From: a virus
IMG/VR virus record: IMGVR_UViG_3300012920_008883
Location: 1 to 30,228 of that record
Length of the DNA: 30,228 nucleotides
Reading direction: 5' to 3' (one strand)
Below, piece after piece: positions 2,345 to 9,104 of the stretch (positions within the stretch are counted from its first letter, which is position 1; every line of letters begins with the position of its first letter). A model generated the notes under the pieces. The model was not told the origin of the DNA. It searched no databases and saw only the letters and a list, made by a program, of their open reading frames with translations. The translations under genes were made by a program, and so were the position numbers.

Positions 2345-2377
2345 AAAAAAAAAGAACCATCTTTCGACAGTTCTTTT
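2345..2377 (-). terminator. Intrinsic terminator of tmRNA
   Basis: On the minus strand, AAGAACTGTC and GATGGTTCTT form a 10-bp stem (with G-U pairs) capped by a GAAA tetraloop and followed by a run of T. It starts a few bases after the tmRNA 3' end. Confidence 0.92.
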
Positions 2378-2379
2378 AG

Positions 2380-2787
2380 TGGAGGTGGAGGGTTTCGAAC
2401 CCTCGTCTTGCTCGTCCCAACCATAGAGGACTACACGTTTAGGATAGTATTTTCAAACACTCCAAAATATTAAGTTTAGTAGATGTGAGTTTAAACAACC
2501 GAACTTACAAATGTCGTCTTATGACGGAGTCTCACTGTCCTATACACTATCTGGTAGTATTATCACCTTTTTAGGAGTTTCTGTTTCTAGGTGTTTCACT
2601 CTCTAACCCATTGTAGGAGTAACCTTAGGCTACCGCTACTTTAGAATCAACAGATACAAGACCCATTAATTCCATCTGTGAATAAACGTCTCCGTTTAAA
2701 AATAATCTCCATAGATTTAAGTGATAGGAAATATCTCACTACGTGCCCTGTTATAATTGACTACGCCAATCAATTCCAGTCACCCCC
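2380..2787 (-). ncRNA. ssrA: Transfer-messenger RNA (tmRNA) with an unusual tag
   Basis: The two ends form a tRNA-like half. The 5' GGGGGTG (2787-2781) pairs with the 3' CACCTCC (2387-2381), with A at 2380 as discriminator. Next to the 3' strand is a 5-bp T-arm (GAGGG TTCGAAA CCCTC). The 5' sequence GGGGGTGACTGGAATTGATTGGCG resembles bacterial tmRNA, particularly Bacteroidota. CCA is not encoded. A reading frame within it, probably resuming at GGA (2693-2691), runs 22 codons to a TAA at 2627-2625. It begins GDVYSQMELM and ends VSVDSKVAVA. Usual bacterial tags are often about 10 residues and end in ALAA, so both length and ending are unusual. The role is to rescue stalled ribosomes and tag incomplete proteins for proteolysis. 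A strong terminator follows, and a small basic protein gene ends 2 bases upstream, so the two are likely co-transcribed. Confidence 0.92.
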
Positions 2788-2789
2788 AA

Positions 2790-2969
2790 TTATTTTACCT
2801 CTTTTATGAGATCTTTTGTTGGTTTCTTAGGTGATTTTGGTTTAGAACCACCACCTGAAGTCTTTTTTCTTGGTTTTCTTTTTGGTTTTGGTTTAGAAAC
2901 CACTACAGGTTTCACCTCTTCCTTCTTGATACCAAGGAGTTTCTTAAAAAATTCAATAATTTTTTTCAT
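2790..2969 (-). CDS. Tiny highly basic protein upstream of tmRNA
   Basis: The minus strand carries ATG (2969-2967) to TAA (2792-2790), giving 59 residues. It starts MKKIIEFFKKLLGIKKEE, an amphipathic basic helix, and continues into a Lys/Pro tail (SKPKPKRKPRKK, then SKPKSPKKPTK) ending KDLIKEVK. Lys and Arg make up over a third of the protein, and tails like this occur in histone-like and RNA-binding proteins. A TATTTATC promoter-like motif sits about 19 bases before the start, and the stop is 2 bases from the tmRNA 5' end, which supports a real transcribed gene. The plus-strand frame over the same bases (2806-3006) is its Phe/Pro-rich shadow. Function is unknown: nucleic-acid binding or a packaged protein are guesses. 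Confidence 0.7.
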   Translation of the reverse strand: MKKIIEFFKKLLGIKKEEVKPVVVSKPKPKRKPRKKTSGGGSKPKSPKKPTKDLIKEVK

Positions 2970-3023: not shown

Positions 3024-3701
3024 TTATTCTGTCGATTGACAGTTTAACGGAAAATGTTTTTCATATAACGCTTCAAAAAATAGTTTGTTTTTTAACCATT
3101 TTTTATCAGTTTCACCAATAGATTTGTGATATAGTTTAATTTTAGTTGTAACACCTATCTTTATGTTTTCCATATAATTTAGAAGACATATTGGTAGATC
3201 GTAAAAATGGAATCCTTCGAATTGAGAATCAAATTTATGTTTAATTCTTTTTTTATGTACCATCATAAATAACCCGTCTATCACTACAACATCTTTGATA
3301 GTATCACCAAAAGATTTGGAATATTTAGAAATGTATCTTTTAGGTCCATTGATGTGACCAACCTGACCTTGCATTGAATCTCTGTCTTGCCACCATTGAC
3401 CTGAAATAAGATTATCAGTCCCTGCGATCCCTAAAATACCATATTCAGGATTCTTATTAAATAACTTTAATATTTTAGGTGTAAGATTTTTAGTTTCAAA
3501 TTCTAAATCATCGTGAATGAATACGACTACGTCATTTGATGATTTCTCTAATCCTTCATTATAAATTTCAGTCAAAGATCTTTCACCATTATTCTCATAC
3601 ACCAAATATTCATTCTTTGGATGTGAGAAAAACTTCTTCACGTGTTTTAAATAATCCTGATCTATTTTTCTTGTTGAGTAAACTACAGTGATTGTATTCA
3701 T
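3024..3701 (-). CDS. Glycosyltransferase-like protein (GT-A fold)
   Basis: This 225-residue protein begins with a beta-strand of the GT-A type (NTITVVYSTRK) and has VVVFIHDDLEF at about 58-68. HDD is in the place of the metal- and nucleotide-sugar-binding DxD motif. Later landmarks are GIAGTDN, a Trp-rich loop (GQWWQDRD), VVVIDGLFMMV (about 138-148) and FEGFHFYDLPIC, all seen in a family of short glycosyltransferase-like proteins from phages and bacteria. It probably transfers a sugar to phage DNA, a virion protein or a host surface glycan. The acceptor cannot be read from the sequence. It lies in the minus-strand cluster with a sugar-isomerase-type cupin, which supports a sugar-related role. 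Confidence 0.75.
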   Translation of the reverse strand: MNTITVVYSTRKIDQDYLKHVKKFFSHPKNEYLVYENNGERSLTEIYNEGLEKSSNDVVVFIHDDLEFETKNLTPKILKLFNKNPEYGILGIAGTDNLISGQWWQDRDSMQGQVGHINGPKRYISKYSKSFGDTIKDVVVIDGLFMMVHKKRIKHKFDSQFEGFHFYDLPICLLNYMENIKIGVTTKIKLYHKSIGETDKKWLKNKLFFEALYEKHFPLNCQSTE

Positions 3702-6535: not shown

Positions 6536-8554
6536 CTAAATTAGAGGTAAATTTCCTAAAAAAGTTAAAGAATCGTTTTCGTATTTGATCTCCACCGCTT
6601 TGTTTTCTACTATATGACCTAATAAAATTTGATCACTTATGAAGTCTTCACACATATTTTGTATGATTCTTCTAATTGGTCTTGCACCATATTCCTCCTC
6701 GGAGTTTCTTGAAAGGATTTCCTTATATACCGATGGATGGAATTTAATATTATAATTCTTATCTCTTAATCTACTCTTCAATTTATTCATCTCGATAGTA
6801 ACAATCTTCTTCAGAGACTTATTATCTAATTTATTGAATACAATTATATCGTCAACTCTATTCAAAAACTCAGGAGAAAATTGTTGTTTAAGAGATTTTC
6901 TAATTATGGAGTCTTTTACCTTTTCTCTATTACTCTCATCCGCAAAACCTACACCACCACCAAAATCAGAAACTTTTTTAGCACCGATATTAGATGTCAT
7001 AATTATTAAGGTATTCGTGAAGTTTACTTTTCTACCAAAAGAATCGGTTAAATGTCCCTCATCTAATATTTGGAGTAATAAGTTAAAAACATCTCTATGT
7101 GCCTTTTCTATTTCATCAAATAAGATTACAGAAAAAGGGTTGTTTTTAATTTTTTCAGTTAGTTGACCACCCTCATCATAACCAACGTAACCTGGTGGAG
7201 AACCAATTAACTTTGATACATTATGTTTCTCCATAAACTCACTCATATCAACCCTGATTATCTTTTCAGGATCGTTGAATAACGTTTCCGCCAAAGTTTT
7301 TGCCAAATAGGTTTTTCCAACACCTGTTGAACCTAAGAACATAAATGAACCAATTGGTTTGTTTGATCCTCTTACACCAACTCTATTTCTTCTTATCGCT
7401 TTAGAAATTGTTGCAATTGCGTCCTCCTGTCCTATTACTTTTTTAGTAATAACATTCTCTAAATTTAGTAGATTTTTAGATTCTTTAGTATCGAGTTTGT
7501 TGATAGGTACACCAACTGTGTCACTTATCATTTCATAAACATCATCAATACTGATAGGTTTCTTATTTTGTTTTTGTTCCTCATTCCACTTTCTTTTCTC
7601 GTTTTCTAACTTTTTAAGAACATTTTTTTCTTGATCTCTAAGATTTGCCGCCAATTCATAATTCTGATCTTTGACTACTTCAAGTTTCTGAATTTTAATG
7701 TCGTCCGCATTTTTTTTCAGTTTTTCAATTGACTCAGGAACTTTTACTGTAATTTTCTTTTCAGACCCCAATTCGTCTAATATGTCAATTGCCTTATCAG
7801 GGAATTGTTTATCAGTAATGTATCTCTTTGATAACTTGACTATGGTTTCAACAACACCTTTAGTATATAATACCCTATGATAATCCTCATAAGATAATTT
7901 TAAGTTCTTTAATATCTCAGTAGTTTCATCAGGTGTTGGTTCTCTAAGAATAATTTTTTGAAATCTTCTAACCAAGGCACCGTCCTTTTCGATATTCTTT
8001 TTGAACTCATCAAAAGTGGTTGCACCAATACATTGAATTTCACCTCGAGCTAACGCGGGTTTAAGTATGTTGGCCGCATCCATTGAACCTGACGCATTAC
8101 CTGCACCAACCATTGTATGTAATTCATCAATGAAGACAATTACATTCGGTGCGTCTTCTAATTCACTTAGTATTGCCTTGATTCTTTCTTCAAACTGTCC
8201 TCTATATTTTGTTCCTGCAACTAATGCCGTTAGATCAAGTGCCATAATTCTCTTATCCAACAAATTAGTTGGACAGGTACCTTCTGTGATCATAATTGCC
8301 AATTTTTCAACAAGTGCAGATTTACCAACACCCGCCTCACCGACAATAACAACGTTGTTTTTCTTTTTTCTTGATAGGATTCTTGCGATTCTCATCACCT
8401 CTTTATCTCTACCTATAATTGGGTCAATTAAACCCTCACTTGCAAGTTTTGTTAGGTCTCTTGAAAAATTATCGAGTACAGGTGTATTACTGTTTTTCTT
8501 ACCTTTTCTTTGACTTTGACCTTCATCCTTGTCTTCATAAAAATCTATGGACAT
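6536..8554 (-). CDS. clpC: ClpC-type AAA+ protein unfoldase without N-domain
   Basis: This 672-residue protein has two AAA+ modules. The first has Walker A GEAGVGKS (72-79) and Walker B VIVFIDELHT (138-147), the second Walker A GSTGVGKT (408-415), Walker B VILFDEIEKAH (476-486) and SPPGYVGYDEGG pore-loop sequence. A UVR-like helix (about 288-312) in the middle region points to ClpC rather than ClpA. The Clp N-terminal repeat domain (about 140 residues in ClpC) is absent and replaced by about 35 charged residues. The loop at 535-537 reads VGF, the ClpP-docking tripeptide position in ClpC, so it could hand substrates to host ClpP. It would unfold proteins using ATP in the cytoplasm. It is transcribed divergently from hsp20 and lies near the tmRNA gene. 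Confidence 0.95.
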   Translation of the reverse strand: MSIDFYEDKDEGQSQRKGKKNSNTPVLDNFSRDLTKLASEGLIDPIIGRDKEVMRIARILSRKKKNNVVIVGEAGVGKSALVEKLAIMITEGTCPTNLLDKRIMALDLTALVAGTKYRGQFEERIKAILSELEDAPNVIVFIDELHTMVGAGNASGSMDAANILKPALARGEIQCIGATTFDEFKKNIEKDGALVRRFQKIILREPTPDETTEILKNLKLSYEDYHRVLYTKGVVETIVKLSKRYITDKQFPDKAIDILDELGSEKKITVKVPESIEKLKKNADDIKIQKLEVVKDQNYELAANLRDQEKNVLKKLENEKRKWNEEQKQNKKPISIDDVYEMISDTVGVPINKLDTKESKNLLNLENVITKKVIGQEDAIATISKAIRRNRVGVRGSNKPIGSFMFLGSTGVGKTYLAKTLAETLFNDPEKIIRVDMSEFMEKHNVSKLIGSPPGYVGYDEGGQLTEKIKNNPFSVILFDEIEKAHRDVFNLLLQILDEGHLTDSFGRKVNFTNTLIIMTSNIGAKKVSDFGGGVGFADESNREKVKDSIIRKSLKQQFSPEFLNRVDDIIVFNKLDNKSLKKIVTIEMNKLKSRLRDKNYNIKFHPSVYKEILSRNSEEEYGARPIRRIIQNMCEDFISDQILLGHIVENKAVEIKYENDSLTFLGNLPLI

Positions 8555-8735: not shown

Positions 8736-9104
8736 ATGTTATTATTTAAAAAAGACCCATTTTTTAATTTGGTTGGAGAGTTCCTAAATGACCATAATGT
8801 ATCCTACAGAGGATCAATAAATGTTCTAAAGAATGTTACAGAAAACGAATATGAATTAGAGTTCGTTTTACCTGGCCTTTCTAAAGAAGATGTTAATGTG
8901 GTTGTTGAAGACAATAAACTAAAAGTATCTTATAAAGACGAAGAAAACGAAAATTCTTATGTGGGATCATTTGAAAGAACTTATGAATTACCCGAAGATG
9001 TAAATCAAACAAAGATTAGTGCTAAGTCAGAAGACGGTATTCTAAAGATTACAATACCGAAGATGAAGAAGTCATCTAAACAACGAACTATCTCAATCAA
9101 ATAA
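8736..9104 (+). CDS. hsp20: Small heat shock protein (Hsp20/alpha-crystallin)
   Basis: This 122-residue protein is mostly an alpha-crystallin domain (about 22-112). It has EYELEFVLPGLSKEDVNV, the signature AKSEDGILKITIPK (AxxxGxLxxxxPK) and a C-terminal I-x-I motif (TISIK) used in oligomer assembly. It holds unfolding proteins in a refoldable state without ATP. Hsp20 genes are common in marine T4-like phages, where a role in head assembly or in infected-cell stress has been proposed. Here it is alone on its transcript, followed by a strong terminator and divergent from clpC, so the two may be co-regulated. Confidence 0.95.
   Translation: MLLFKKDPFFNLVGEFLNDHNVSYRGSINVLKNVTENEYELEFVLPGLSKEDVNVVVEDNKLKVSYKDEENENSYVGSFERTYELPEDVNQTKISAKSEDGILKITIPKMKKSSKQRTISIK

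Follow-up and report, generated by a model that had tools for sequence, protein, structure and literature searches.

The tmRNA gene and the phage that carries it

The 30,228-base stretch of DNA analysed here, an IMG/VR virus record called the window below, carries a single tmRNA gene, which lies on the minus strand, and three tRNA genes. An earlier note, made from the sequence alone, had taken this DNA to be that of a phage and linked it to Bacteroidota. Genes of T4-like type for terminase, portal, prohead protease and gp23 are found in the window and identify its source as a T4-like phage, probably a jumbo phage. The portal resembles those of Flavobacterium phages, with its best single match in a phage recorded from Microcystis. 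Relatives of the window encode a Bacteroidota-type ClpP, which shares the stretch PYILEERQxNxTxxDVFSRLMMxRII with the Bacteroides ClpP compared. The ClpP type and the likeness to Flavobacterium phage portals argue strongly for Bacteroidota as the likely host group, in agreement with the earlier note.

The tmRNA gene (ssrA; 2377..2787, minus strand) is of the one-piece type. A covariance-model search, which the earlier note had proposed as a check, was made with Rfam RF00023; the window matched the whole model (1-374) at 2787-2377 with 66.1 bits, above the curated cut-off of 47 bits, and ARAGORN placed the gene at 2379-2787. The acceptor stem is composed of GGGGGUG (2781..2787, minus strand) and CACCUCC, which is followed by the discriminator A and CUA (2377..2387, minus strand); seven of seven positions are paired, including the alanine identity pair G3-U70. 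The T-arm, GAGGG-UUCGAAA-CCCUC (2388..2404, minus strand), is intact as well, and so both tRNA-like ends and the T-arm are present as previously described. Helix P2 is intact, and the pseudoknot PK1 (2706..2740, minus strand) is formed by stem 1, AGUGA/UCACU, and stem 2, UUUCC/GGAGA. The GAAA-loop terminator mentioned in the earlier note was located at 2377-2350 (minus strand) as an intrinsic terminator with a 12-pair stem and a T run. The window gene reads CUA where a CCA end would stand, whereas relatives encode CCA, CUA, CAA and other 3' ends; lacking an encoded CCA, the window tmRNA would need CCA addition.

Among 15 related phage tmRNAs, the 27 pairs of the acceptor, T-arm, P2 and PK1 helices were 98.3% paired, and nine helix pairs were changed on both sides, which was matched by none of 500 shuffles; slid controls likewise fell far below the real pairing and covariation. 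Such compensatory changes were found in the T-arm and in PK1 (CG to GC and AU to UA), and G3-U70 was invariant in all 15. On sequence grounds, the window gene is confirmed as a real tmRNA gene. We infer that its product would be active, that is, alanylated, bound by SmpB and tagging stalled chains.

Two observations concern the tmRNA genes of relatives. In one of them (G023; L070:14803-15229) the T-stem is intact, but the T-loop is a non-canonical GGCGGTG rather than TTCGAAT, and this gene scores below the Rfam threshold. The genes at L013:15527-15928 and L007:16258-16659 are nearly identical in their second halves and differ in PK1 and the tag; the tmRNA genes of these phages therefore look mosaic. 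Beside the window gene, a lysine-rich open frame of 59 aa (2790-2969, minus strand), found next to the tmRNA in eight related loci, stops 3 bases before it. Further along lies a glycosyltransferase-like gene (3024..3701, minus strand; PF13712), a conserved neighbour whose homologues accompany the tmRNA in 54 of the 74 tag loci and for which no functional link is claimed.

The tag reading frame and its relatives

The earlier note had counted a tag of 22 codons from a resume codon GGA at 2693, and comparison with relatives yields exactly this peptide. The frame (2625..2693, minus strand) begins with GGA at 2693-2691, encodes GDVYSQMELMGLVSVDSKVAVA and ends with TAA at 2627-2625; it is conserved in about 70 IMG/VR contigs, and its resume codon is homologous in position to those of Bacteroidota tmRNAs. 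ARAGORN, however, calls an 8-residue tag, VDSKVAVA, with resumption at gene position 137 instead of position 95, where GGA lies. In E. coli, 12 nt separate PK1 from the resume codon, and a critical A precedes that codon by four bases (PMC2481249). GGA sits 11-12 nt downstream of PK1 in the window tmRNA, and an A stands at -4 of this placement in all 48 distinct phage sequences and all 49 Bacteroidota tmRNAs, although the site chosen by ARAGORN likewise has an A at -4 and that criterion alone is not decisive. The spacing from PK1 and the conservation are what favour GGA. The short tag would begin about 53 nt past PK1, relatives conserve the frame upstream of VDSKVAVA, and the resume codons of Bacteroidota tmRNAs (gene position 91-113, mainly 94-102) match the position of GGA. 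Moreover, ARAGORN itself reports the full tag of 20-21 aa in many relatives. We therefore rejected its call for the window, and it is highly improbable that the true tag is the 8-residue peptide. Automatic tmRNA tag calls can be too short, since the first 14 residues are missed here.

The long tag in these contigs occurs as 34 distinct peptides of 20-22 aa, for example GNVYNNMEIAGLLATSKVAA, DNVYNTMEIAGLLATSKVAA, GNVYKNMEIAGLLATSNVAVA, DNVYNVMEACGLIATSTVAVA and GNVYSQMEVLGLVSTTSTVEVA, with the consensus GNVYxxMExxGLLATSKVA(V)A. In the nearest relatives of the window it reads G[DN]VYSQMELMGLVSVDSKVAVA or ends in KVAVS. A DNA search for DSKVAVA followed by a stop codon found six viral contigs, five of which have a related tmRNA; the remaining one, L083, has none and was discarded. 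Further relatives were obtained with a nucleotide profile built from the window tmRNA and with the Rfam model on contigs chosen for their ClpC gene, and a 17-base pattern taken from the alignment gave 89 IMG/VR stretches, which are mostly tmRNAs with the same long frame.

Where identical peptides are encoded, the coding differences fall at third codon positions, save one first-position change in a leucine codon that is also synonymous. These differences include codons 1, 4, 6, 9, 10, 12 and 13, upstream of the short tag called by ARAGORN. In close pairs, the tag differences at codon positions 1, 2 and 3 numbered 307, 71 and 753, respectively. The tag peptide is under purifying selection, in an open frame closed by a stop codon, and its first half (V-Y, M-E, G) is constrained as strongly as its end. 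In the larger set, the invariance of V3, Y4, M7 and G11 is in part a product of the search pattern, but the 15 aligned tmRNAs (14 found via the Rfam model and G023 via the nucleotide profile, on contigs mostly chosen for ClpC) show it independently of that pattern. A hydrophobic core, M-E-I-A-G-L-L-A, is conserved.

Host tags and phage tags compared

The window tmRNA shares with those of Bacteroidota the tRNA-like domain (TLD), G3-U70, P2, PK1, the A at -4 and the resume position, and the context TTTAAAC/GGC is common to the phage tmRNAs and several Bacteroidota hosts. The RF00023 scores differ, being 60-88 bits in the phages and 147-205 bits in the Bacteroidota matches listed. The tags differ as well: the phage tags have 20-22 aa and end in VAA or AVA, whereas 47 of the 49 Bacteroidota tmRNAs that were read encode tags of 9-10 aa, mostly ending in ALAA, AMAA, SLAA or RLAA, and the two exceptions have 12 aa and 19 aa. 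The 19-aa tag ANNTPVYAMNSVPVYSLAA of one Bacteroidota genome (L333:184-581) looks like a duplicated tag. A pattern search for the phage tag motif in 395 Bacteroidota genomes gave a single match, in G151, which encodes ENVYRLMEDEG, does not resemble the phage tag and was rejected; the motif is absent from these genomes.

The comparison with host and phage tags that the earlier note had called for thus upholds a tag that is long and unlike those of hosts. Its other statements on the tag need qualification. The window tag does start with G, but the idea that a host-type start has been kept is weak because G begins just 24 of the 49 Bacteroidota tags, the rest beginning with A or D. The degradation end was said to have diverged. 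It does differ from that of hosts, reading AVA in the window and VAA, EVA, SVA, AVS or VNA in relatives, and the window tag carries no ClpX-type C-terminal degron (LAA/ALAA or a close variant). It has not been lost, however, since Ala is the last residue in 33 of the 34 distinct tags and ten end in KVAA. As to the suggestion that the tag could protect proteins, with the Ala ending kept it more probably still marks them for degradation. Host ClpX may still recognise the C-terminus, VAA or AVA.

Phage-encoded tmRNAs with their own tag are already known (PMC4131195; PMC9004378), from mycobacteriophages, Streptomyces phages, Bacillus phage G, Melnitz, crAss-like phages and Cellulophaga phages. Their annotated tags include ANSKFAFALAA and AADVAADYAAVGA, and none in 50,697 INPHARED phage records fits the present family; neither the tag nor the window tmRNA gave a match in these records, and no isolate with the tag was found among them. 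Two cultured Cellulophaga phages (Callevirus), Calle_1 (L379:372-731) and phi38:1 (L378:372-731), have a tmRNA tag of 22 aa according to ARAGORN, AQIEANMEAVNAILNLEVAVGV; read from a TTTAAAC-GGA motif, as we read the sequence, it would have 30 aa, GNNTNAVNAQIEANMEAVNAILNLEVAVGV, ending in LEVAVGV. The tmRNAs of Chryseobacterium phage MA9V-3 (L372:648-1006) and of five crAss-like phages (L373-L377) are marked by ARAGORN as permuted (two-piece), with tags that include GNVIDINKYVAKLEVAA and GNNFVTDYTQLAVA. Two-piece tmRNA has been reported for Alphaproteobacteria, Betaproteobacteria and Cyanobacteria (PMC9004378).

ClpC, ClpP and the possible fate of tagged proteins

About 3.7 kb from the tmRNA gene, the window encodes a ClpC-like AAA+ unfoldase of 672 aa (6536..8554, minus strand), assigned by Pfam, by alignment with Staphylococcus aureus ClpC and by family comparison. 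Like the ClpC proteins of S. aureus and Bacillus subtilis, it has two AAA+ modules, a middle domain and a ClpP-docking tripeptide. In the window protein the middle domain is a UVR domain, the pore loops read GTKYRG and GYVGY, and the tripeptide, of the form [LIVMF]GF, is VGF. It differs from the bacterial proteins in the N-domain of about 140 residues. The best solved relative, S. aureus ClpC, is aligned over residues 152-798, and because the alignment begins at residue 152, the window ClpC lacks this domain. The N-domain is missing in all 78 phage ClpC proteins, which have 625-689 aa, whereas most bacterial ClpC exceed 800 aa. All 78 have retained the pore loops, and 76 of them the ClpP-docking tripeptide. 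When contigs were picked by the tag alone, 28 of 36 encoded a ClpC without N-domain, and the eight without a ClpC match, one of them of 131 kb, are all fragments. Among 14 viral contigs whose tags are short and host-like, none encoded ClpC; these contigs are small and could derive from a prophage or from the host itself. In one contig (G054:C1:43586-47340), the ClpC gene is split into two open frames, which cover query residues 1-417 and 414-654 and lie about 1.8 kb apart; an intron, an intein or some other insertion may have come between them. A gene for an Hsp20 small heat-shock protein (8736..9104, plus strand; PF00011, 5.9e-21) adjoins the window ClpC gene, and in 12 related loci a homologue is found close to the tmRNA; only possibly is it part of the same proteostasis set.

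Of the six tag contigs with a length of 160 kb or more, five encode a ClpP of the Bacteroidota type. It was found neither in the window nor in any of 43 tag contigs below 160 kb, as expected if the ClpP gene lies far from the tmRNA gene. A 176-kb contig (G003), whose ClpC is 88% identical to that of the window, encodes ClpP and ends just short of the expected tmRNA site; SmpB was sought in this contig and not found. The catalytic residues of ClpP are kept in the phage relatives. SmpB is encoded in only five of 49 tag contigs, which suggests that most members would use host SmpB. A 311-kb contig (G046) encodes tmRNA, SmpB, ClpC and ClpP together, although by gene content a pathway encoded entirely by the phage is not the rule.

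From these findings we propose, with about even confidence, that the window encodes a working tmRNA of a T4-like Bacteroidota phage and that its long tag most likely feeds proteins to the phage ClpC, acting with phage or host ClpP. During infection, many messages would be cut and ribosomes would stall. The phage tmRNA would enter the stalled ribosomes with SmpB, usually that of the host, and would add Ala and the encoded 22 residues, GDVYSQMELMGLVSVDSKVAVA, to the truncated proteins. The phage ClpC would then recognise the long tag, unfold the tagged proteins and pass them to phage (or host) ClpP. The N-domain of ClpC is the site through which host adaptors act, and its absence would release the phage ClpC from them. 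The phage would gain ribosome rescue and recycling of amino acids while host messages are destroyed, independently of host ClpX. The earlier note had supposed that host proteases may read the tag differently, and the ClpC without N-domain and the ClpP encoded together with it favour this idea.

The link of ClpC and ClpP with the tag family is a co-occurrence of genes, known from sequence, and it may merely reflect the shared ancestry of one phage clade. Common ancestry would fit an ordinary phage tmRNA, whose Ala-ending tag host ClpXP reads, whose length is neutral or mildly useful, and beside which ClpC serves refolding or remodelling. The Ala and KVAA endings counted above are in keeping with such a tmRNA. 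So is the even longer tag of the Callevirus phages: neither the window ClpC nor a phage ClpP has a match in Calle_1, so that a long tag does not require a phage ClpC and ClpP, and a host protease may read it there. Reading of the last residues by ClpX does not, however, explain why the first half of the tag is constrained, and the hosts retain tags of 9-10 aa; we regard this explanation as rather unlikely, though it is the strongest of the alternatives.

The tag could also be a switch of specificity, to another host protease (Lon or FtsH) or to an adaptor that binds its conserved first half, in place of the phage ClpC. The hydrophobic core is compatible with such a switch, and a precedent exists in Mesoplasma florum, which has no ClpXP and in which Lon reads a long divergent tag (PMC8138137). 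No adaptor-like gene was recognised beside the tmRNA in the tag loci, however, where the glycosyltransferase and other genes have no clear link to it, and it is phage ClpC and ClpP that co-occur with the tag; a switch of this kind seems improbable. More improbable still is that the tag stabilises or relocates proteins, or that the tmRNA is a decoy sequestering host SmpB. A tmRNA consisting only of the TLD is known from phage DS6A, and molecules of this kind are able to inhibit tmRNA (PMC4131195), but here the tmRNA is complete, with its resume determinants and coding frame conserved, and the Ala-ended tag has been retained.

Compared with Mesoplasma florum, in which a long divergent tag is linked with a change of protease (PMC8138137), the gene content of the present phages suggests such a link, with phage ClpC and ClpP in place of Lon as the candidate reader. 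More broadly, we suggest, somewhat more tentatively than for the window itself, that a family of jumbo phages of Bacteroidota has an insulated pathway in which proteins carrying the phage tmRNA tag are destroyed by a ClpC devoid of the adaptor domain and by phage ClpP, with SmpB added in some phages. Phage tmRNAs, phage SmpB (PMC4131195, PMC9004378, PMC7162821) and, in Mesoplasma, a long tag with another protease (PMC8138137) are known already. In the part of the study of huge phages by Al-Shayeb et al. (2020) that was covered here (PMC7162821), tmRNA and SmpB are reported, without mention of a long tag family or of a link to ClpC and ClpP. A conserved family of phage tags of 20-22 aa linked with ClpP and a ClpC without N-domain was not found in the literature searched, and the earlier note had missed both the family and this link.

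In the present phages, the tag is long, phage-specific and conserved over its full length, and the genomes that carry it also encode its probable reader. If the proposal is true, this system would be a viral counterpart of the co-evolution of tag and protease in Mesoplasma, and would provide an orthogonal degron-protease pair that might be put to practical use.
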